From Arthrobacter sp. B1805 (GTDB taxonomy: Bacteria; Actinomycetota; Actinomycetes; Actinomycetales; Micrococcaceae): a stretch of DNA of 64,000 nucleotides. The notes under the pieces were generated by a model. That model was given only the letters and a program-made list of their open reading frames with translations, had not been told where the DNA came from and searched no databases. The stretch's first letter is position 1; each line of letters begins with the position of its first letter. Made by a program: the position numbers and the translations under genes. Where the stretch lies: positions 1 to 64,000 of the forward strand of contig NZ_PJIQ01000016.1 in assembly GCF_002929745.1 (NCBI RefSeq), written 5' to 3'. This document shows positions 12,293 through 22,666 of the stretch, in pieces.

Positions 12293-12335
12293 CGCTGGAG
12301 GGCCGGTTCCTTTCGGAGCCGGCCCTCCAGCGTTT
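12293..12335 (+). terminator. Rho-independent terminator of rpsT
   Basis: Bases 12293-12310 and 12315-12332 form an 18-bp stem with one G-U wobble around a TTTC loop. TTT follows. The stem begins 14 bases after the rpsT stop. Being nearly symmetric, it could also stop transcription leaving holA on the other strand, whose stop lies 149 bases away. Confidence 0.88.
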
Positions 12336-12420
12336 AACCGCCCTGCCCTGTCCGATACCTGCACTGAATCCTCTCGACGGGGATCGCGGTTGAGGCGGCC
12401 GGTACTTCCGGTTAGTCGAC

Positions 12421-12486
12421 CAGCCCTTCCCGGCAGTGCTCAGCCGTTCCGGGCAGCCGACCAGCCGTTCCGGGTAATACTCAGCC
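12421..12486. repeat. Short degenerate tandem repeat, period about 20-21 bp, at the holA 3' end
   Basis: The core CAGCC(C/G)TTCC(C/G)GG starts at 12421, 12441 and 12462, and a partial copy (CAGCC) starts at 12482 inside the holA stop region. The copies diverge after the core. The array occupies most of the space between the rpsT terminator and the holA stop. It resembles in size and core (TTCCGG) the arrays near 47864 and 59584. Confidence 0.6.
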
Positions 12487-13491
12487 ATCTCCGAGCGCGA
12501 TGACCGTCACGGCACGCTCGACGGCGTAGACGGGGTCGCGCGACTCGCCCTTCACCTGGGCATCCGCCTCCGCGAGTGCCCGTACACAGTGCGCGAGTGC
12601 TGCTGAACTGAAGCGCTGTGCCTCTTTTCGCGCCTGGTCGACCTGCCACGGAGCCATCCCAAGCTCTTTGGCCAGCTGGATCGACGACCCGCGAACGCCG
12701 TGCACCTTGGCGACGGCTCGTACCTTCATGGCGAGTGCGGCGACGATCGGAACCGGATCGGCGCCCGTCGCGAGCGCGTGGCGCAGCATCGACAGAGCTT
12801 GAGCCGTACGCCCGGCGAGAGCGGCATCCGCAACCTTGAAGCCGGTTGCTTCGACACGGCCTCCGTAGTACTTCTCCACCGTCTCGGCCGTGACGTCGCC
12901 CGCGGTGTCCGCCATCAGCTGCTGGCATGCGGCTGCGAGTTCGGGCAACTGCGAACCGACCGCGGCGACGAGCGCGCGTACGGCGTCAGGGTCGATGCGA
13001 CGGCGTGCCAGGCGGAACTCCGTGGCGACGAACTCCGCTTTCTCGCCATCCTTCTTCAGGGGCTGGCAATCGACGATCGTGGCCTGCGCGGCTTTGATGG
13101 CGTCCAGCAGCTTCTTGCCGCGGTTGCCTCCCGAGTGACGCAGCACCAGGACGACGTCGGGGGCAGGATCGGCCAGGTAGGCGAGGGTATCGACCAGAAA
13201 GGCATCGTTCATCTGAGCCAGCCCGGACACTTCGATCACCGTCCAGTCGCCGAAGAGTGACGGACTGGCATGCATCATGAGGGTTCCGCCCTCATAGGAC
13301 ACGGCGTCCAGCCTCACGAGCTCCGCTGCGGGCTGCGCGGTGCGCACCTGGTTGCGGATCGATTCCGCCGCTTTCGATGCCACGTAGTCCTCGGGTCCGG
13401 AGAGCAGCACCACGCCGGCGGGCCGTACGTCACGCCATGTCGCCTGCTGGCTCGAGCCGCTGGTGCGACCGGCGGGTGATCTTGTTGCCAC
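12481..13491 (-). CDS. holA: DNA polymerase III subunit delta
   Basis: Delta opens the beta sliding clamp within the clamp-loader complex. The 336-residue protein fits the HolA pattern: VVLLSGPEDYVASKAAESIR at the N-terminus, then DWTVIEVSGL, VVLVLRHSGGNRGKKLLDAI, VDCQPLKK and a C-terminal collar domain with LAKELGMAPWQVDQARKEAQRFS. It lacks a Walker A, as expected for delta. The start is GTG. It lies 87 bases after comEC; comEA-comEC-holA is a widely conserved order, so all three are probably one transcript. Confidence 0.95.
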   Translation of the reverse strand: MATRSPAGRTSGSSQQATWRDVRPAGVVLLSGPEDYVASKAAESIRNQVRTAQPAAELVRLDAVSYEGGTLMMHASPSLFGDWTVIEVSGLAQMNDAFLVDTLAYLADPAPDVVLVLRHSGGNRGKKLLDAIKAAQATIVDCQPLKKDGEKAEFVATEFRLARRRIDPDAVRALVAAVGSQLPELAAACQQLMADTAGDVTAETVEKYYGGRVEATGFKVADAALAGRTAQALSMLRHALATGADPVPIVAALAMKVRAVAKVHGVRGSSIQLAKELGMAPWQVDQARKEAQRFSSAALAHCVRALAEADAQVKGESRDPVYAVERAVTVIALGDG

Positions 13492-13578
13492 GTGGCGTCG
13501 TTCCTTCCGTCAGATCCATTCCTACTGTTTCACGGTGGGACCGCACCGCAAAGCTGCGCGGCCGTCGCGAGATTGTTC

Positions 13579-16317
13579 TCAGCGCAGTTCGCGAACCTCC
13601 ATCGTGCTGCCGACGACCTCTACGGTGAATGAGCCGAGCTCGTCCGTCCGGGCTGTTGCGATTCCGGATCGTGCGAGTGTCTCGAGGATCGCAGGGTGCG
13701 GATGGCCGTAGTCGTTGTCCTCACCGACCGAGATGAGCGCGAGGCCGGGGTCCACGGCCTCGATCAGCGAGCTGCCCCCATTTCTGGCGCCGTGATGGGC
13801 CACCTTGAGTATGTCGACTCCCCTGTCGCTGAGACCCGCCGCGGAGGACAGGAGGACGTCGGCGGCGTCCTCCTCGAGATCCCCCGTCAGCAGGAGTGTG
13901 ACAGGGCGGTCCGGGGTCGGCACCACGACCTCGAGCACCGCGCTGGCGTTGTTCTCCTCGGACGTGACTGCGCCCGGACGGGGCCACAGCAGCTCGACAG
14001 TGATCGGTGGGAGATCGATCACTGTGGTGCTGCTCAGCTTCTCTGCCTCCACTCCTGCGCTAGCAGCTGCAGCGGTCACCTCCGACGGCAGCCTTTCCTC
14101 GCCGGAGGAGTAGTAGATGGCAGACACCGCACGATCACGTATGGCGCCTCCGACGCCGCCGTAATGATCGTCGTGCAGGTGCGTGATGACCAGCGCATCG
14201 ATCACCTCGACCTGCAGCCTGTCCAGGCATCGGTCCATCGCTCCGGGCTCCGGTCCCGTATCGACGACCATCGCGTGGCCGGGCGTCGTCCTGACCACGA
14301 TCCCGTCCCCCTGGCCGACGTCGCACAGTGCCATCACCCAGTCGCCTCGCGCGGGCGGATCGATGCGTCCGAGCAGAAGGAGTCCGGCCGGAATACAGGC
14401 GACGAGGAGAAGCGAGACGGCGAACAGCATCCCACGACCCCGGCGGGCAGGCTCGGGCACACGGTTGTACCCGGCGGGATGGACGTGCGGTTCCGACCGG
14501 CCGGTGCGCGCCGGTGGACGAACCGTCCGTCCTGGCCCGCCCGAGACGCGGAGAGCGCCTCCTGACGCGGCCCCGTGGCCGGGTAACGAGGCCCGCCCGG
14601 CGAGGGGTGCGGGTCCGGAGATGGCTTGCCCGCGTCGCCGGTGTCGATGCTGCCGCAGGAACGCACCCGGTGCGCCGACGACCCGGAGGCGCTGGGTCAG
14701 CGGGACCTTCGCGCGTCCGGCGACCGCTGAGTGCTGGGCGAGGAGCAGCAGCAGCGCCAGAGACGCCAGTGATACCAGTGCTGCGACGATGACCCCCGGT
14801 GGTCCCGCGATCCAGGGCACGGTGGCGCCAGGTGCGGCTGCGAGGGTTTCAGCGACGCCGGCCACCCAACGGGTGCCCCACTGAGCGGCGCTGATGAGGG
14901 GTGGAGCCAGTACGGGAGCTGCCACCAGCGCGAGGACAGCCACCATTCCCAGCAGGGTTATGGCAGGTACGACGGGCGACGCGAGGACATTGGCGGGCAG
15001 GGAGTATGCGGGTAGCGCGGGCTGGATGAGGACGATGATCGGCGTGCAGAAGAGTTGCGCAGTCAGCGGTATTGCGAGTATCTGGGCAATGCTCCGCGGC
15101 AACGCCGATCCGAGTGCAGCCGCCACCGTCGGTCCCGCGGTGACGAGACCCAGGGTCGCGGCGACCGACAGCATGAATGCGAAGGAAATCGAGAGCCATG
15201 GATCCACCGCGAGCAGGACGATGATCGAGAGCAGCAGCAGGGTCAGTGACACCTTGCCCCGACCGGACAGCACAGCCGCTACCCCGATCGTGCCCATCAC
15301 CGCTGCGCGGAGGACGCTGGGCTCAGGCCGAACCAGCATCACGAACCCTGCAAGGGCGACGACCGCACCCGTGCAGGCTGGAATCCGTGGCACGCGGACG
15401 GCGCGCAGTCCGAGGAACGCAAAGGCTACGACGTAGGAGCAGTTGGCTCCGCTGACGGCCGTCAGGTGGGTCAGGCCGGTGGTCTGCATGGCTTGCTCCA
15501 GTTCGCTGTCCAGGCCTATCCGGTCGCCCAGCGCCATGCCGGGGAGCAGACCGCCGTCCCGACTGTCCTGGACGGCCTGATGTCGAAAACGGTCCCGCAG
15601 GTCACCGGTGTATCCGAGCCAGCCTCCTGCGGCTGCGATCGTCGGACGACTGGAGGGAAGGAGCACGGCAGCGGCCTTGCCGACCCGGTCCGGGGCCTTG
15701 ACGGTGCCTATGACGCGCACGGTGTCTCCTGTCCCCACGCCGGCCCAGTCCGAAGAGGCTATGACGACGACCGGCGTCCTTGCAGCGAAGCTGTCGCCGT
15801 GCAGCACCCCTCCTATGACATCGCCGTCGACGAGATAACGGTCCCGGCCATCGAATGCTCCCGGTTCCAACAAGGACGGCTCGCCCGTGACACTGAGGAC
15901 GGCGGTGAAAGAGGTGCCACTCCGGACGGCTTGATCCAGCGGTCCGGCTTCAGACCGTGCGAGGCTCCCGCCGGCGGAGAGCAGGACCAGGGTCACGGCC
16001 GCTACCGGTGCCAGGGCGAGGGCCGCCAACGGCACCCTCGGGCGCCCTGCCGCGGAAGGGATGGACACCAGACACGAGAGCACCAGACCAGCAGCGACAG
16101 CAAGAAGACCTGCGGCAGACACGGCTGTCGCCTCCACGTGAACGGCGATGGCGGCTGCTGTCCATGCTGCTGCCGCGGACGGGAGCAGTCGTAGGTCCCC
16201 CTTCCATCGAGCAGGAGGTGGCTGACAACCCTGCTTCCGGCGCGCATCGGCGCTCTCGTTCCGCCGCCGGTGCTGCGCGGCGAACAATGAGAACGACCCC
16301 GCGCTGATCCTGCTCAC
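13579..16317 (-). CDS. comEC: DNA internalization channel ComEC/Rec2
   Basis: ComEC forms the membrane channel through which one strand of transforming DNA enters the cell. The 912-residue protein has an N-terminal group of helices with a DUF4131/OB-like segment. The Competence domain (about 250-520) includes GMALGDRIGLDSELEQAM and GLTHLTAVSGANCSYVVAF. The C-terminal metallo-beta-lactamase-like domain has the HxHxDDH motif in ITHLHDDHYGG, a putative nuclease. A Pro/Arg-rich linker of about 80 residues sits between channel and nuclease domains. It overlaps the comEA stop by four bases (ATGA). Confidence 0.94.
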   Translation of the reverse strand: MSRISAGSFSLFAAQHRRRNESADARRKQGCQPPPARWKGDLRLLPSAAAAWTAAAIAVHVEATAVSAAGLLAVAAGLVLSCLVSIPSAAGRPRVPLAALALAPVAAVTLVLLSAGGSLARSEAGPLDQAVRSGTSFTAVLSVTGEPSLLEPGAFDGRDRYLVDGDVIGGVLHGDSFAARTPVVVIASSDWAGVGTGDTVRVIGTVKAPDRVGKAAAVLLPSSRPTIAAAGGWLGYTGDLRDRFRHQAVQDSRDGGLLPGMALGDRIGLDSELEQAMQTTGLTHLTAVSGANCSYVVAFAFLGLRAVRVPRIPACTGAVVALAGFVMLVRPEPSVLRAAVMGTIGVAAVLSGRGKVSLTLLLLSIIVLLAVDPWLSISFAFMLSVAATLGLVTAGPTVAAALGSALPRSIAQILAIPLTAQLFCTPIIVLIQPALPAYSLPANVLASPVVPAITLLGMVAVLALVAAPVLAPPLISAAQWGTRWVAGVAETLAAAPGATVPWIAGPPGVIVAALVSLASLALLLLLAQHSAVAGRAKVPLTQRLRVVGAPGAFLRQHRHRRRGQAISGPAPLAGRASLPGHGAASGGALRVSGGPGRTVRPPARTGRSEPHVHPAGYNRVPEPARRGRGMLFAVSLLLVACIPAGLLLLGRIDPPARGDWVMALCDVGQGDGIVVRTTPGHAMVVDTGPEPGAMDRCLDRLQVEVIDALVITHLHDDHYGGVGGAIRDRAVSAIYYSSGEERLPSEVTAAAASAGVEAEKLSSTTVIDLPPITVELLWPRPGAVTSEENNASAVLEVVVPTPDRPVTLLLTGDLEEDAADVLLSSAAGLSDRGVDILKVAHHGARNGGSSLIEAVDPGLALISVGEDNDYGHPHPAILETLARSGIATARTDELGSFTVEVVGSTMEVRELR

Positions 16318-17366
16318 CCCGCCACGATGAGCGGAAGTATCCCGTCCAACAGGGCAGGACCGATCCCCGGAACCGCGTCGATGTCGGCTGCCTGCACAAA
16401 CGGTCCGTGCTCATCCCGCCAGTCAATGATGCGCTGCCCGAGAACGGGTCCGACTCGGGGCAGTGATTCGATTTCGGCCAGTGACGCGGAGTTGATGTCG
16501 ATTGCTCCCCCTGGACGCGAGGTCGCTCCGCTCACCGCGGCGGCCCCGTCCGGTTCGGCCGACCGCCCGCCTGATGGCGATGCCGGTGCTTCCTGCGAGG
16601 GACCACCCGCTCGCGGCTCCTCCCCCACGGCGAGGAGATGAACATGCTGCCCGTCCGCAGGGATTCCGGCGAGATTGATGCCTTCGAGATCCGCCTCCGG
16701 CAGGGCTCCGCCGGCCCTGTCGATAACCTCGAACAACCGTGTGCCCGCTGCGACGGTGACGACGCCCGGTGTGGCTACGGCCCCCGTGACATAGACGACG
16801 ACAATCGCGGACGACGAGCTACTCGCCGTGGCGCCCGGCCGCATTCCGGAGGACGGTTCTGGAGGCATTCCTGAAGCTGTCGCTGTCGCGTCGGAACCAG
16901 CCGCGGAAGCCACGGAGGATGAATCGGACTCGCCCGAAGGCTCGGCATCGAGCTGCACCGACACGGCGGCGGCCGAGGGCTCGGAGCTGCGGACGAGGAA
17001 CATCGCCGCCCCTATCGCCAGGGCGACCCCGAGGAATACAAGGGCAGCCGAGCGTGCGACGCGCCATCGCACACCGGGACGTGCGGGCCATTCCTCGCCC
17101 TCGACATGCCCCGCCGTGGGTTCAGGAGTGACTACCTCGTGCTGCGGCAGCGGGGGCTCCTCCTGCACGTCCACGTGCCGGACGCCAGGAGCGTGCTCCT
17201 GGCGCGTCCAGCCGTCGGCAGTTACTCCCAGCGGTCGCCGCAGCGACCCGGACTCCCGCGGCGACAGCGACTCGGACGTCCGTGGTGTCGGTGACCCCGA
17301 CGCCTCTGCTGCCAGCGACAATCGCGCCCCGGCATCTCCGGCGACAGGCCAACGGTGCTTTCCCAT
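16314..17366 (-). CDS. comEA: Competence protein ComEA, membrane-anchored DNA receptor
   Basis: ComEA binds double-stranded DNA outside the membrane and feeds ComEC. The 350-residue protein has a long hydrophilic cytoplasmic N-terminus (1-104), one membrane helix (about 105-125) and a Ser/Ala-rich linker. A SLBB domain (about 185-250, with VVVYVTGAVATPGVVTVAAG) follows, and then a C-terminal tandem helix-hairpin-helix (about 288-350: DINSASLAEIESLPRVGPVLG and FVQAADIDAVPGIGPALLDGI). The N-terminal extension is longer than in Bacillus ComEA (about 205 residues) but normal for actinobacteria. The comEC start overlaps its stop. Confidence 0.94.
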   Translation of the reverse strand: MGKHRWPVAGDAGARLSLAAEASGSPTPRTSESLSPRESGSLRRPLGVTADGWTRQEHAPGVRHVDVQEEPPLPQHEVVTPEPTAGHVEGEEWPARPGVRWRVARSAALVFLGVALAIGAAMFLVRSSEPSAAAVSVQLDAEPSGESDSSSVASAAGSDATATASGMPPEPSSGMRPGATASSSSSAIVVVYVTGAVATPGVVTVAAGTRLFEVIDRAGGALPEADLEGINLAGIPADGQHVHLLAVGEEPRAGGPSQEAPASPSGGRSAEPDGAAAVSGATSRPGGAIDINSASLAEIESLPRVGPVLGQRIIDWRDEHGPFVQAADIDAVPGIGPALLDGILPLIVAG

Positions 17367-17469
17367 ACCCAGACGCTAGGAGCACGGGATCCGGCACCGA
17401 CGGCATGCCCCTGCTATGTGGACATCTGCCCAGCCCTCTACCTCGAGGCGCTCCCGGCTCGGGTGAGGA

Positions 17470-18357
17470 TCAGCCTGCGCTCACCGTGACCGCCAGCACG
17501 CCAAGGCCTGCGTGCGCGGCGAGGACCGAAGGACATGGCGCCGTCGTCACGCCCTCCGCACCCACGGCACCAGCCAGACGCCCGGCAAGGCCGCTTGCGT
17601 CGGCCGGATTCCCGAAGTGGTGGACCGTCAACAGCACGGTTCCGGTACGGCCGGCGACATCCCCCTCCACCAGTTCCTGGAGCCGCTGCATACCGCGCTC
17701 GGCGGACCGCATCCGTTCCAGGGGCACGAGCTTCCCGCCCTGCACGTGGAGGATCACCCGAACGGACAGGAGGGTCCCCAGCCAGCCGGCGGCTGCCGTG
17801 ATCCTTCCCCCGCGGCGCAGCTGATCCAGGCTCGGCACGTAGAAGTACAGGGCCGAGGCACGCGCGGACATGGCGGCTGCAGCCGCCGCCTCCTGCAGGC
17901 CTGCTCCGGCTGCTGCCGTTGCCAGAGCGGCCAGTGCTGCCCTACCCTGCGCCATCCCCGCTGTCCGCGTGTCGATGACTTCCACGGGGATACCGACCCT
18001 CGACGCCGCCAACCTCGCCGCCTCCACCGTGCCGGACAGCAACCCGGACAGGTGTACCGACACGACGCCGTCGTAGCCTTCCTCTTCAAGGCGCTCGTAG
18101 ACCCGCTCGAACTGGCCGGGCGACGGGCGCGAGGTGCGGACGTCCGCGCCGGCGGCAAGTGCCACCATCAGCGGCGCCGTGACGTCGTCGTGCTCGCCCG
18201 TCAGGATGTCGTGCCCGACGAGCACCGGCATGGGGACCACCCGCACCCCCTCGGCCAGTCCACCCGGTCGGCTCCACTCGGGAGCGAACCCGGCAGCGGA
18301 GTCGGTGACGACCGCGGTGCGGACGGACTTCCCGTGCGATGCCGGCGGCCGGCTCAT
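17470..18357 (-). CDS. DegV family fatty-acid-binding protein
   Basis: DegV/FakB proteins bind a fatty acid for phosphorylation by a FakA kinase. The 295-residue protein has the family order: VRTAVVTDSAAGFAPEW at the start, DVRTSRPSPGQFERVYERL (the Thr-Ser-x-Pro-Ser-x-x-x-Phe loop that holds the carboxylate) and VVSVHLSGLLSGTVEAARLAA with VEVIDTRTAGMAQG. No FakA (DAK-domain) gene is in the window. The ATG overlaps the leuS stop codon (ATGA), so it is translationally coupled to leuS. An upstream in-frame extension into leuS is not needed. Confidence 0.9.
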   Translation of the reverse strand: MSRPPASHGKSVRTAVVTDSAAGFAPEWSRPGGLAEGVRVVPMPVLVGHDILTGEHDDVTAPLMVALAAGADVRTSRPSPGQFERVYERLEEEGYDGVVSVHLSGLLSGTVEAARLAASRVGIPVEVIDTRTAGMAQGRAALAALATAAAGAGLQEAAAAAAMSARASALYFYVPSLDQLRRGGRITAAAGWLGTLLSVRVILHVQGGKLVPLERMRSAERGMQRLQELVEGDVAGRTGTVLLTVHHFGNPADASGLAGRLAGAVGAEGVTTAPCPSVLAAHAGLGVLAVTVSAG

Positions 18358-20855
18358 CAGGCCGGGACGATGTTGACCAGTTTGGGTGCCCGCACGATCA
18401 CGGTTCGGATGCCGCGACCGTCCAGCACGCGCTGGACCTGCTCGCTGGCCAGCGCGAGCTCGCGGAGGGCGTCCTCGCCGATGTCCGGTGACACCGTCAA
18501 CCGGTCCCGCACCTTGCCCTGCACCTGGACGACGGCGACGACGGAGTCCTGCGTGAGGAGGGCCGGGTCGATCGTCGGCCAGCCTGCCGTGGCGACCGTG
18601 GCCTCGTGGCCGAGTCGGTTCCACAGGTCCTCGGCCGTGTACGGCGCGAAGAGGCTGAGGATGACGGCGACGGCCTCGGTGGCCTCACGGACGGCGGGAT
18701 CAGCGCCTCCCGGCCCGGAGTCGATCGCCTTCCGCGTGGCGTTGACGAGTTCCATCAGCTTGGCGATGACGACGTTGAACTTGTTGGCTTCCATGAGCTC
18801 GGCGGCGTCGGCGACGGTCCGGTGCGTGATCGAACGCAGCGCGCGGTCCCCCGAGGAGGGATCGACGCCCGGCTCGCTGGTCACGTCCGCGCCGAGCCGC
18901 CAGGCACGCGCCAGGAACTTCGCGGAGCCCGACGGCGAGACGTCGGCCCAGTCGACGTCGTCCTCGGGAGGAGACGCGAAGACCATGGTGAGGCGGACGG
19001 CGTCGACGCCGAAGCGGTCGAGCTGCTCGCCGAGGTCCACGCCGTTGCCGAGGGACTTGCTCATGGCCTTGCCGCCGTTCAGCACCTGCCCCTGGTTCAG
19101 CAGCGCGCTGAAGGGCTCGGTGAACCCGACCATCCCGAGGTCGAACAGGACCTTCGTGAAGAACCGGCTGTACAGCAGGTGCAGGATGGCGTGCTCCACG
19201 CCACCGACGTACTGGCCGACGGGCAGCCAGCGGTTGACGGCCTCGGTGTCGAAGGGCGCGGAGTCGAGGTGCGGGTTGACGAAGCGCAGGTAGTACCAGG
19301 ACGAGTCGACGAAGGTGTCCATGGTGTCCGTGTCCCGCTTGGCGGCACCACCGCACGACGGGCAGCCCACATTGACCCACTCCTCGACGGCGGCCAGCGG
19401 TGAGGTGCCCTTGGGCGCAAGGGCCTCCCCGCGCAGGCCTTCGGGGAGCGTGACCGGCAGCTGGTCGTCCGGCACCGGCACCTCGCCGCACGAGGGGCAG
19501 TGGATGATCGGGATGGGGGTTCCCCAGAAGCGCTGGCGCGAGAGCAGCCAGTCGCGCAGGCGGTAGTTGATGGTGTGCTCGCCGGTGCCCTGTTCCTCGA
19601 TCAGCTCGACGGCGCGCCGGATGGCCGTGGCCTTGTCCAGCCCGCTCAACTCGCCCGAGTTCACGAGGGTACCTTCGCCGGTCGTGGCGATGCCGGTCTC
19701 AGCGGCGTCGTCCGCGCCGGTATCGACGACGGTGCGCACCGGCAGGTCGAACGCGCGCGCGAAGTCGAGGTCACGCTGGTCATGGGCGGGCACGGCCATG
19801 ATGGCACCGGTGCCGTAGTCCGCCAGGACGTAGTCCGCGGCCCAGACGGGCAGCTTCTCGCCCGTCAACGGATTGACGGCGTAGCGACCGGTGAACACCC
19901 CGGTCTTCTCACGCTCCGTCGCCTGCCTCTCGATCTCCGAGAGGCCCTTGACCTGCTCGCGGTACTGGTCCAGCTCGGCGCGCCGGTCGGGAGTCACCAG
20001 GTCGAGAGCCAGGTCGGCGTCGGCCGCGACGACGAAGAAGGTGGCCCCGTACAGGGTGTCGGGACGCGTGGTGAAGACGGTGACGTCGGTGTCCGGCTGG
20101 TCGCCGTCGGCCTCGATCCGGAAGCGGACGTGCGCTCCCTCGGAACGGCCGATCCAGTTGCGCTGCATCGCGAGGACACGCTCGGGCCAGTGTCCCTTGA
20201 GCTGCTCCATGTCATCGAGCAGCCGATCCGCGTAGTCGGTGATCTTGAAGTACCACTGATTCAGGTTCTTCTTCGTGACCATCGTGCCGCAGCGGTCACA
20301 GGCCCCGTTGATGACCTGCTCGTTCGCCAGTACGGTCTGGTCCTTGGGGCACCAGTTCACCGGCGAGTTCCGGCGGTAGGCCAGTCCCTTCTGGAAGAAC
20401 CGGACGAAGAGCCACTGGGTCCAGCGGTAGTACTCGGGATCGGACGTGTGCAGCCGCCTGCTCCAGTCGGCACTGATGGCGTAGCGCCTGAACGAGTTCG
20501 CCTGCGTGTCGATGTTGGCGTAGGTCCACTCGGCCGGGTGGGCGTTGCGCTTGATCGCCGCGTTCTCGGCGGGCAGGCCGAACGAGTCCCAGCCGATCGG
20601 ATGCAGGACGTCGAAGCCCTTCTGGCGGTAGAAACGCGCGGCGACGTCTCCCATGGCGAATGCCTCGGCGTGGCCCATGTGGAGGTCGCCCGAGGGGTAG
20701 GGGAACATGTCGAGCACGTAGCGCCGCTCCCGCTTGCCGTCGTCGGCCGGAGCGAACGCCTGGAGCTGATCCCACACCGCGGGCCACTTCGCCTCGATGG
20801 TGGCGAAATCGTAGGTGTTCTCGTCCGGCTGAGCGCCCTCGGGGTTGATGCTCAC
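18357..20855 (-). CDS. leuS: Leucyl-tRNA synthetase
   Basis: The class Ia synthetase charges tRNA-Leu. The 832-residue protein has the HIGH-type motif in [14 protein letters not shown], the editing CP1 domain with [16 protein letters not shown] and [16 protein letters not shown], and the KMSKS loop as [12 protein letters not shown]. Zn-type CxxC pairs occur around WCPKDQ/CDRCG and CPSCGEV/CPSCGGA. The start is GTG at 20855, giving [17 protein letters not shown]; an upstream in-frame ATG would run into the structured leader and is rejected. A leucine-rich leader peptide and hairpins lie upstream, suggesting ribosome-mediated attenuation. The stop overlaps degV. Confidence 0.97.
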
Positions 20856-20945
20856 TGTATGTTGACCTGTCCTGTCGGTGGAACGTCGTCCTGCTGTGCT
20901 GCCTGCAAGCTGTGATGCCGCTATTCGCCCTCGGGGGCACCCTTC

Positions 20946-21015
20946 GTGTGTCCGGGGCCGGACACACAAAAGCCCCTCACAGGGAGGGGCCGCCGCACGG
21001 TGGATACCGTGCGGC
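20946..21015 (-). promoter_or_regulatory. Structured leader of leuS, probable leucine attenuator
   Basis: Three hairpins follow the leader peptide on the minus strand. The first, 21015 to 20992, is a 10-bp stem (GCCGCACGGT arms) whose first base is the last base of the leader stop codon. The second, 20990 to 20972, is a 7-bp GC-only stem followed by TTTT, the classic attenuator form. The third, 20967 to 20946, is a 10-bp stem (CCGGACACAC arms). The leuS GTG is 91 bases further on. Stalling of a ribosome on the Leu codons would alter the first stem. I could not fix the competing antiterminator pairing by eye. Confidence 0.65.
20968..20990 (-). terminator. Intrinsic terminator within the leuS leader
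   Basis: The stem GCCCCTC (20990-20984) pairs with GAGGGGC (20978-20972) across a five-base loop and is followed on the minus strand by TTTT at 20971-20968. It lies between a leucine-rich mini-ORF and leuS, so it is best read as the regulated attenuator rather than the end of another gene; no gene ends here. Confidence 0.72.
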
Positions 21016-21041
21016 TAGGTAAGGAGGAGGGCGCGGAGCAT
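21015..21041 (-). CDS. Leucine-rich leader peptide of leuS (MLRALLLT)
   Basis: A nine-codon frame runs from ATG (21041-21039) to TAG (21017-21015) and encodes MLRALLLT. Four of eight residues are Leu, including three consecutive Leu codons (CTC CTC CTT) just before the stop. It lies 160 bases upstream of leuS and directly before a stem and terminator hairpin, as in known amino-acid attenuators. There is no Shine-Dalgarno sequence. A TAAAGT -10-like hexamer lies ten bases before the ATG, which suggests a leaderless transcript beginning at or near the ATG. Translation is inferred. Confidence 0.65.
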   Translation of the reverse strand: MLRALLLT

Positions 21042-21090
21042 GGGTCCACTTTAGCAGTGTGCTCTGCGGGCCGCCCGTCCCTGCCCAGCG

Positions 21091-21136
21091 CGGTCAGGGC
21101 GCACCGGGTTCCTGGGAACCGCGTGCGCCCTGACCG
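21091..21136 (-). terminator. Hairpin terminator downstream of glpK
   Basis: Arms 21091-21104 (CGGTCAGGGCGCAC) and 21123-21136 pair perfectly over 14 bp. After a 2x2 internal loop, GGTTCC pairs with GGAACC around a TG loop. It starts 12 bases after the glpK stop on the minus strand. There is no T-tract, as is frequent in high-GC actinobacteria. It separates the glycerol operon from the leuS promoter region. Confidence 0.75.
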
Positions 21137-21148
21137 AGCTCGTCCCTA

Positions 21149-22666
21149 CTAGCGGACGTCCTCGTCCACCCAGTCGAAGGTCTTCGTGACGGCCTTCTTC
21201 CAGAGGCGGAGCTGGCGCTCGCGCTCGGCGTCGTCCATGGACGGATTCCAGCGCTTGTCCTCCGCCCAGTTGGTCGCGAGTTCGTCCGTGTCCTTCCAGA
21301 AGCCGACGGCGAGGCCCGCGGCGTAGGCCGCGCCGAGCGCCGTGGTCTCCGTGACCTTCGGTCGGATGACCGGGATTCCGAGGATGTCGGCCTGAAACTG
21401 CATCAGGGCGTCATTGGCGACCATGCCGCCGTCGACCCTGAGGTCCTCCATGTTGACACCGGAGTCCGCGTTGGCAGCGTCGAGGACCTCGCGGGTCTGG
21501 AAGGCGGTGGCCTCCAGTGCCGCTCGGGCGATGTGTCCCTTGTTCACGAACCGCGTGAGGCCGACGATGGCACCCCGGGCATCCGAGCGCCAGTACGGCG
21601 CGAAGAGACCGGAGAACGCAGGCACGATGTAGACGCCGCCGTTGTCCTCGACCGTCGTGGCGAGCTGCTCGACCTCCGGAGCGCTCTTGATGATCCCGAG
21701 GTTGTCCCGGAGCCACTGCACGAGTGATCCGGTGACGGCGATCGAACCTTCGAGCGCGTAGACCGGCTTGGCGTCCCCGAGCCGGTAGCAGACCGTCGTC
21801 AGCAGGCCGTTCTTCGAGTGGACGATCTCTTCGCCGGTGTTCACGATCATGAAGTTGCCGGTGCCGTAGGTGTTCTTCGCACCGCCCTTGTCGAACGCGG
21901 CCTGTCCGAACGTCGCAGCCTGCTGGTCGCCGAGGATGCCGGCGACAGGCGTCTCGCGCAGGAGCTGCGAGGTGTGGACGGTGCCGTACACCTCCGACGA
22001 GGAGCGGATCTCCGGCAACATCGACACAGGGACCCCGAAGTCGGCGAGGATACCCTCGTCCCACGACAGCGTCTCGAGATCCATGAACAGTGTGCGGGAA
22101 GCGTTGGTGACATCGGTGATGTGCACGCCACCGTCGGTGCCACCCGTGAGGTTCCAGGTGACCCACGAATCTGTGTTGCCGAAGAGGAGATCGCCGGCTT
22201 CGGCCTTCTCGCGGGCTCCCTCGACGTTGTCGAGGATCCACTTGATCTTCGTACCCGAGAAGTAGGTTGCCAGCGGCAGGCCGACCTTCGCCTTGTACCG
22301 TTCGACGCCGCCGTCCTGCGCAAGCTCATCCACGATGTTCTGCGTCCGCGTGTCCTGCCACACGATCGCGTTGTAGACGGCCTTGCCGGTCGTCTTGTCC
22401 CAGACGACGGCGGTCTCGCGCTGGTTGGTGATACCGACGGCGGCGATGTCGTGGCGAGTGAGATTCGCCTTCGAGAGTGCCGTGCCGATGACCTCGCGCG
22501 TGTTGTCCCAGATCTCGGCCGGGTCATGCTCCACCCAGCCGGCCTTCGGGAAGATCTGCTCGTGCTCCTTCTGACCGGACGACACGATGTCGCCCTTGTG
22601 GTCGAACACGATGGCCCTGCTGGAGGTGGTGCCCTGGTCGATGGCGATGACGTACTGCTGCGACAT
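21149..22666 (-). CDS. glpK: Glycerol kinase
   Basis: The FGGY-family enzyme phosphorylates glycerol to sn-glycerol 3-phosphate with ATP. The 505-residue protein begins [18 protein letters not shown] (the phosphate-1 loop). It has [26 protein letters not shown] and WQDTRT near the substrate site, and [29 protein letters not shown] as a FGGY signature region. The usual length is about 500. AAGGAG lies seven bases before the ATG. It is 67 bases downstream of glpF and is the last gene of glpD-glpF-glpK, before a strong hairpin. Confidence 0.97.

Follow-up and report, generated by a model that had tools for sequence, protein, structure and literature searches.

A candidate regulatory switch was located ahead of leuS, the gene for leucyl-tRNA synthetase, in a window of 64,000 nucleotides from Arthrobacter sp. 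B1805 (contig NZ_PJIQ01000016.1, positions 1 to 64,000). This element would most likely allow the gene to be made when leucine is short, and similar ones appear to recur across many relatives. As judged from the sequence and its relatives, it is a probable leucine-responsive, ribosome-mediated transcription attenuator of leuS that would work by the mechanism proposed below (probability about 0.78); that it is a leucine attenuator as such is very probable. A first-pass annotation of this DNA had suggested that leuS is preceded by a leucine attenuator with a leaderless mini-leader, and the suggestion gains support from kept Leu codons, covarying stems and the spacing of a -10-like element.

The order on the minus strand, read directly, is TAAAGT, six bases, and then ATG CTC CGC GCC CTC CTC CTT ACC TAG. 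The features of the region are as follows.

21149-22666, minus strand: glpK-like gene, directly upstream of the leader and ending at 21149
21048-21056, minus strand: -10-like element TGC-TAAAGT, with the hexamer TAAAGT at 21053-21048
21041, minus strand: predicted transcript start, at or beside the A of the leader ATG, from the placement of the -10-like element
21015-21041, minus strand: leader ORF MLRALLLT-UAG of eight codons, read directly and kept in relatives
20992-21015, minus strand: hairpin HP1, 10 bp, proposed antiterminator opening with the G of the UAG stop, from fold and covariation
20991, minus strand: one-base linker between HP1 and the terminator, from parsed geometry
20968-20990, minus strand: intrinsic terminator GCCCCTC-loop-GAGGGGC with TTTT, from fold and covariation
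20961-20967, minus strand: conserved tail GTGTGTC after TTTT, kept in the family
18357-20855, minus strand: leuS, leucyl-tRNA synthetase, GTG start, the putatively regulated gene and the sole full-length match in the genome
17470-18357, minus strand: degV-family gene, whose likely ATG shares one base with the leuS stop

Parts of the leader and its surroundings

The leader peptide carries Leu at codons 2 and 5-7, and the regulatory run CTC CTC CTT occupies 21029-21021. The last Leu codon, CUU (21021-21023), stands 5 nt ahead of HP1. The terminator stem is made of G+C over 7 bp (20990-20972; 8 with a G-U pair), and TTTT lies at 20971-20968. The ATG-to-TAG frame for MLRALLLT, the 10-bp stem from the stop codon and the GC stem with TTTT, all described in the annotation, were confirmed by direct reading and by the fold. 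After the T-run, 80 of 117 family leaders begin with GTGTGTCC, GTGTGTCT or GTGTGTCA, which exceeds the needs of a U-tract.

Folding of the 185-nt leader RNA gives -88.5 kcal/mol with a z of -4.63, a stability that 200 dinucleotide shuffles never reached. This fold comprises the 10-bp HP1 from the G of UAG, the G+C terminator stem and a third stem downstream, and some bases of the leader ORF pair with sequence past the third stem; when the fold ends at the terminator base, the leader ORF is unpaired. The third stem, which had been listed as part of the attenuator, is thus present in the window's fold, but as a working part it was rejected as incidental, a 6-bp complement to the tail occurring in just 6 of 117 parsed Micrococcaceae leaders.

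A consensus scan for terminators did not rise above chance, with 3 sites in 12300-21300 against a shuffle mean of 2.2, two of the three being this same hairpin. Comparison supplies the case instead: relatives keep both stems as well as the Leu codons, and the stems show covariation. An Rfam scan of the window returned no match at the gathering score, to T-box or any other family, and the best weak match in 20850-21110 had E 0.055 and 17.9 bits, against 49.5 needed. Among 20 leuS loci, 11 of them without a match to the covariance model described below, no T-box or riboswitch was found except for a guanidine-III riboswitch at 690-759 of a Micrococcus lylae locus (L067), which lies about 740 bases or more upstream of leuS.

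In 214 of the 218 leaders parsed, the distance from a TAnnnT hexamer to the start codon is 6-7 nt, a spacing that is partly selected, because the search admitted 4-11 nt and pattern or model had served to pick the loci. The available part of a study of S. lividans gives a mean of 6.3 nt from the hexamer to the transcript start and describes the homologous leader as leaderless (PMC8079986). Since the hexamer spacing fits this mean, a leaderless transcript is likely, and this is also the likely state of the window's leader; a transcript start beyond the leader peptide is not indicated. The longer pattern TGCGnTAnnnT is common in 117 family and 82 class sequences, with the TGCG bases at 65-90% each, and no -35 element stands out in the same sequences. 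The window itself departs from TGCGn, with ACTGC before its hexamer (21048-21058 region).

The host genome (3.80 Mb, 79 contigs) contains a single full-length leuS, and among the matches listed, the nearest LeuS proteins are those of Arthrobacter ruber and A. agilis, at 94%. On the minus strand, the consensus scan found no terminator-like site from leuS to holA. Together with the one-base overlap, this makes cotranscription of leuS and degV possible. A DegV match lies 3' of leuS in 54 of 58 family loci in a strand-blind count, and degV is possibly cotranscribed with leuS in the window. An effect of leucine supply on competence and clamp-loader genes, raised in the annotation, is conceivable. 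Past the glpK-like gene, a long inverted repeat without a T-run was seen by eye at 21090-21135, and it may end the glpK transcript.

Conservation of hairpins, codons and target genes

The covariance model R1 was built from 34 leaders, namely the window and 33 of the loci later searched. It matched one site each in 162 of 295 family genomes, representing 18 of 31 genera, and left 133 of the 295 without a match. Within the same genus, 23 genomes were matched, and none occurs among the 20 listed of the 133 non-matches. In the class, at least one site was found in 151 of 393 genomes at E 0.1, at least five of these being family genomes. The model also matches 56 of 80 leuS loci at E 0.01 or better, a count that is not independent because 33 of the 34 model sequences come from these loci.

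The next gene is leuS at 90 of 90 family loci and at 70 of 83 class loci, and the remaining class sites precede ilvB (9), cimA (2), leuA (1) or a contig end (1). These genes were assigned by best match to five reference proteins, and the 90 and 83 loci include a few repeats (duplicate places: G030, G319, G660 and one of G481). For five of the other genes, N-terminal fragments had citramalate synthase (two), 2-isopropylmalate synthase (one) and acetolactate synthase (two) as best families.

For closer comparison, 223 loci were parsed (50 from L006-L085), and five without a standard ORF at the expected place were removed, which left 218. The hairpin parse left out L156, which has no standard start codon, together with L219, L240 and L127, and it found no terminator in five (L075, L226, L233, L236 and L253); identical sequences were merged to give 199, and removal of the misparsed L245 gave 198. 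With the one-hairpin locus L230 excluded, the shuffle test covered 117 family and 80 class leaders, and codons were counted in 113 family and 71 class leuS leaders.

Alignment across relatives, proposed in the annotation as a check, bore the element out, with Leu codons retained and both-side changes at 11 of the 12 pairs. In 98 aligned sequences, 99.5% of the cells of these pairs are standard pairs, and both-side changes number 78 cells compared with 15.8 in shuffles (none of 500 as high), in an alignment that was fitted to the same structure and so favours it. Sliding the register lowers pairing to 40-74%. A count in fixed register gave p 0.001 or less for pairs 5-9 of the family set, where pairs 1-4 hardly vary; in the class set, pair 7 gave p 0.015 and the other eight 0.167 or more, a weak signal explained by the linker, which varies from 0 to 2 nt. 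The model-fitted count is the stronger of the two but leans to its own structure. In a model-free comparison with shuffles, the stretch from the Leu run to the terminator folds at a mean z of -4.5 (117 family leaders) and -4.2 (80 class leaders).

The geometry of the hairpins is equally regular. HP1 begins 4-5 nt past the last Leu codon, with a linker of 0-2 nt behind it, in 95 of 117 family and 61 of 80 class leaders (shuffles 9-10%). The short linker by itself is found in 111 of 117 and 78 of 80 (189 of 197 together; shuffles 57-59%). The stop codon, in turn, has two main positions that differ by 9 nt, or three codons: in 100 of the 117 family leaders and 16 of the 81 class leaders HP1 opens with its third base, and in 31 of the 81 class leaders it begins seven bases inside HP1. 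Short leaders read LLLx-UAG, and long ones typically LLLx(E/G/Q)PR-UGA; four family leaders (L029, L039, L110 and L200) have Gln at the UAG position, and their frame runs on. Since the spacing from the Leu run to HP1 is kept whereas the stop shifts, the fixed point of the layout appears to be set by the Leu codons. The use of UAG in the short type may be explained by the ability of its last base to open HP1.

Leu occupies the codon nearest to HP1 in 109 of the 113 family leaders and in 69 of the 71 class leuS leaders (178 of 184), and this codon is CUU in 101 and 61 of them (162 of 184). The other Leu codons at this place are CUA (7) and CUG (1) in the family and CUC (6) and UUA (2) in the class. 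Across the opening 2460 bases of 38 related leuS genes, 2678 Leu codons were counted, of which 4.4% are CUU; slow decoding or a feature of the RNA might account for its use in the leaders. At the two preceding positions, CUC, CUG and CUU are used freely, and Leu is lost more often there, being kept in 103 and 106 of the 113 and in 52 and 64 of the 71. On this pattern, we take the HP1-proximal Leu codon to be the putative trigger. Four of the 113 family leaders have no Leu beside HP1. Glutamicibacter-like loci (L043-L045 and L049-L051) keep the -10 element, the mini-ORF and the hairpins, and their leaders, such as MNPKRNLA, MYSQFHLL and MKPQ, have one, two or no Leu codons; in L043 and L045, the single Leu codon, determined by eye, is CUA.

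Beyond leuS, the codons follow the gene. The ilvB sites found with the leuS model carry runs of Ile, Leu and Val, for example MHRILVVSEHVV and MRLGILVLH, and the cimA sites read MTVRQIIF and, by eye from GTG, MQHRVLIIR, thus Ile or Val-Leu-Ile-Ile. In two class genomes (L221 and L240), genes for citramalate synthase are preceded by this architecture, and the leaders contain Ile codons. At the leuS, ilvB and cimA sites, the regulatory codons are cognate to the amino acid of the regulated gene, and nothing else in the data speaks as strongly for sensing through the translation of such codons as this agreement between codon and pathway. The host of the window has an attenuator-like ilvB leader of its own on contig C75 (L266/L267), about 235 bases ahead of ilvB. 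By eye it reads MQLEPVVVVLIQRVA, with GCGCGTG/CACGCGC arms, two bases, a CCCCTC/GAGGGG terminator whose sequence type matches that of the window element, and a T-run; its -10 element is indistinct. R1, run at E 10, did not report it among the 150 of 3425 candidates that were scored.

Proposed switching and competing explanations

In the proposed mechanism, RNA polymerase would begin the transcript with the A of the leader ATG, and its 5' end would be loaded by a 70S ribosome. If charged tRNA-Leu were short, the ribosome would halt on the Leu run; with CUU in its A site, 5 nt would be free before HP1, so that HP1 could form. A spacer of about 5 nt is the one at which a downstream stem just meets the ribosomal mRNA entry, as in frameshift signals. 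HP1, lying flush against the terminator, would hinder its closure, and polymerase would read into leuS. If leucine were ample, the ribosome would pass CUU and reach UAG (or UGA further on), keeping the 5' arm of HP1 open; the terminator would then close and leuS would be off. The terminated RNA is expected to be about 75-80 nt long and to end in the UUUUGUGUGU tail. HP1 should be the antiterminator, since a ribosome on CUU leaves it standing and movement to the stop opens it.

Attenuation is usually taught as competition for shared bases. The annotation had spoken of pairing alternatives, and those of the trp kind do not hold, as no antiterminator sharing bases with the terminator was found. 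Extended by unbroken pairs, HP1 gains no base of the terminator in 112 of 117 family and 74 of 80 class leaders (91 and 57 with shuffled flanks), an extension that does not exceed the shuffled level, and classical overlap was rejected; with one mismatch allowed, the invasion is mostly 0-1 bases. When the ORF was left out and the terminator pairs were forbidden, the terminator arms remained mostly unpaired. As HP1 and the terminator share no bases and coexist in the minimum free energy structure, their mutual exclusion rests on a steric argument, whereby both hairpins, 0-2 bases apart, may not close together in the exit region of the polymerase. A contact model remains because HP1 does not reach into the terminator and pairing of the leader ORF, discussed below, works in the wrong direction. 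That HP1 acts as an antiterminator by contact is a tentative reading, at slightly less than even odds.

A broader version would see a modular, class-wide attenuator in which codons are swapped for leuS, ilvB or cimA, the hairpins share no bases and exclude each other by abutting in the RNA exit region, a near-fixed rare codon (CUU, at times CUA or UUA) 5 nt from HP1 is the trigger, and the stop is free to move. This is a doubtful proposal at present. Switching by hairpin contact, if true, would be a simpler device, movable between genes by changing few codons, and it would explain why an eight-codon leaderless ORF is sufficient.

Pause hairpins are known from the trp and his leaders, where the his pause has a spacing of roughly 11 nt. 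HP1 might accordingly be mainly a polymerase pause hairpin, with polymerase waiting in the terminator loop for the ribosome and timing deciding the outcome. For a TG step whose T falls 10, 11 or 12 nt past HP1, the counts are 20, 48 and 29 among 111 sequences of the family and 30, 17 and 11 among 78 of the class, where one sequence can count more than once; the terminator loop, however, sits at that distance anyway, and the counts are uncorrected for loop composition. A pause role would be compatible with the contact attenuator, but as the whole explanation it is unlikely, for pausing alone leaves the sparing of leuS under starvation unexplained.

An improbable alternative is a relic or near-constitutive leader, in which the terminator fixes a basal level and leucine is irrelevant. 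In S. coelicolor, according to the part of the 2005 study at hand (PMC1262725), changing codons of the ilvB leader was without effect, a result that would suit a relic, and mutations in the leuA leader do not fit classical attenuation; both results speak against the proposed switch. Some leaders have decayed, and the Leu-poor Glutamicibacter-like leaders and the 133 unmatched family genomes point the same way. Against a relic stand the Leu codon beside HP1 in nearly all parsed leaders and the change of codons with the gene.

The Leu run could also serve as the alternative partner of the terminator, its CUC and CUU codons pairing with the GAGGGG arm unless ribosomes on the leader prevented this. 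With the terminator pairs forbidden, the 3' arm does pair with the leader ORF at 71% of positions in the family and 62% in the class, percentages that have no shuffled control. Giving up the terminator would cost about 7 kcal/mol on average, and a long-range pairing would have to compete with a local hairpin. The direction is also wrong, as stalling of a ribosome at the Leu codons during starvation would promote termination, and this pairing is very improbable as the switch.

The element might also be read as nothing more than the end of the upstream glpK-like transcript, beside an ORF that arose by chance. That gene does end at 21149 on the same strand, and GlpK precedes the element in 27 of 58 and in 24 of 30 loci of the family. 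This notion is almost certainly wrong, since a -10 element stands between and the element goes with the downstream gene: in other families only 2 of 22 and 0 of 25 loci have GlpK upstream, and leuS follows there too.

Relation to known amino acid leaders

Attenuators of leuS were predicted in 2005 in Streptomyces avermitilis and S. coelicolor, as given in the available part of that study (PMC1262725). The S. lividans leader leuL2, MRAVRLLLSEPR, was described in 2021 and is leaderless by RNA-seq, as stated in the accessible portion of the report (PMC8079986). In view of these, the window element is an addition to the known leuS attenuators. It resembles the Streptomyces type in its place directly upstream of leuS, in a short ORF with a Leu run and in a terminator hairpin with a U-tract; a leaderless transcript, as reported for S. 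lividans, is predicted for the window from the -10 spacing. It differs in having eight codons and UAG, whereas the Streptomyces leaders have twelve. Among class loci found with the model, L137, L141 and L237 encode a peptide identical to leuL2. No report of a leuS attenuator in Micrococcaceae, and none of a citramalate synthase (cimA) leader, was found in the literature covered. The covariance model can find such leaders in unannotated genomes, the window element having no Rfam match.

A near mechanistic precedent is the "fast" attenuator of C. glutamicum ilvBNC. In the available part of its description (PMC11857589), mutational analysis supports an antiterminator and a terminator with adjacent bases, CUU and GUA are named as control codons, the two hairpins overlap by GCC, and a third hairpin opposes the antiterminator. 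The window element shares with it adjacent hairpins (here with a linker of 0-2 nt), CUU as a control codon, putatively so in the window, and a transcript that begins with the leader start codon or one base away from it, as is predicted for the window. In contrast, no counterpart of the three-base GCC overlap was found here. The leader ORF of the window is unpaired in the fold that ends at the terminator and partly paired in the longer one. A likeness to the ilvB-II motif (PMC10272879) is seen in the ilvB sites of other genomes, which were found with the leuS model. In C. ulcerans, a reporter of the ilvB leader was high in minimal and low in rich medium, and a change of Val to Glu in the leader had no effect, which the authors credit to the remaining codons (PMC10272879). 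Corynebacterium diphtheriae, too, has an ilvB leader of the leaderless kind, as far as the part of that source at hand goes (PMC5784534).

Less expected in this group of elements are the nearly invariable rare CUU beside HP1, a stop that moves by three codons at constant RNA geometry, and hairpins that abut, with no shared bases found between them.

In the enterobacterial trp, his and leu attenuators, the position of the ribosome on cognate codons selects between read-through and an intrinsic terminator. The same decision is proposed for the window. Unlike those leaders, it lacks a four-strand overlap, is predicted to be leaderless and has a far shorter leader, with the amino acid run 5 nt from the first hairpin.

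Finally, the LEU element of actinobacterial leuA likewise has a Leu-rich leader peptide. It is different in being a pseudoknot, in which Leu codons pair with the leuA Shine-Dalgarno sequence, and in having no other attenuator parts, according to the portion of the source available (PMC1262725). The leuA site found with the leuS model (L230) has the leader MHSLLLLRSRGEA and lacks the full architecture, as just one hairpin was found in the parsed stretch. This site and another at a contig end (L236) are weak, Leu-rich matches in which no separate terminator was found, and they may be LEU elements.
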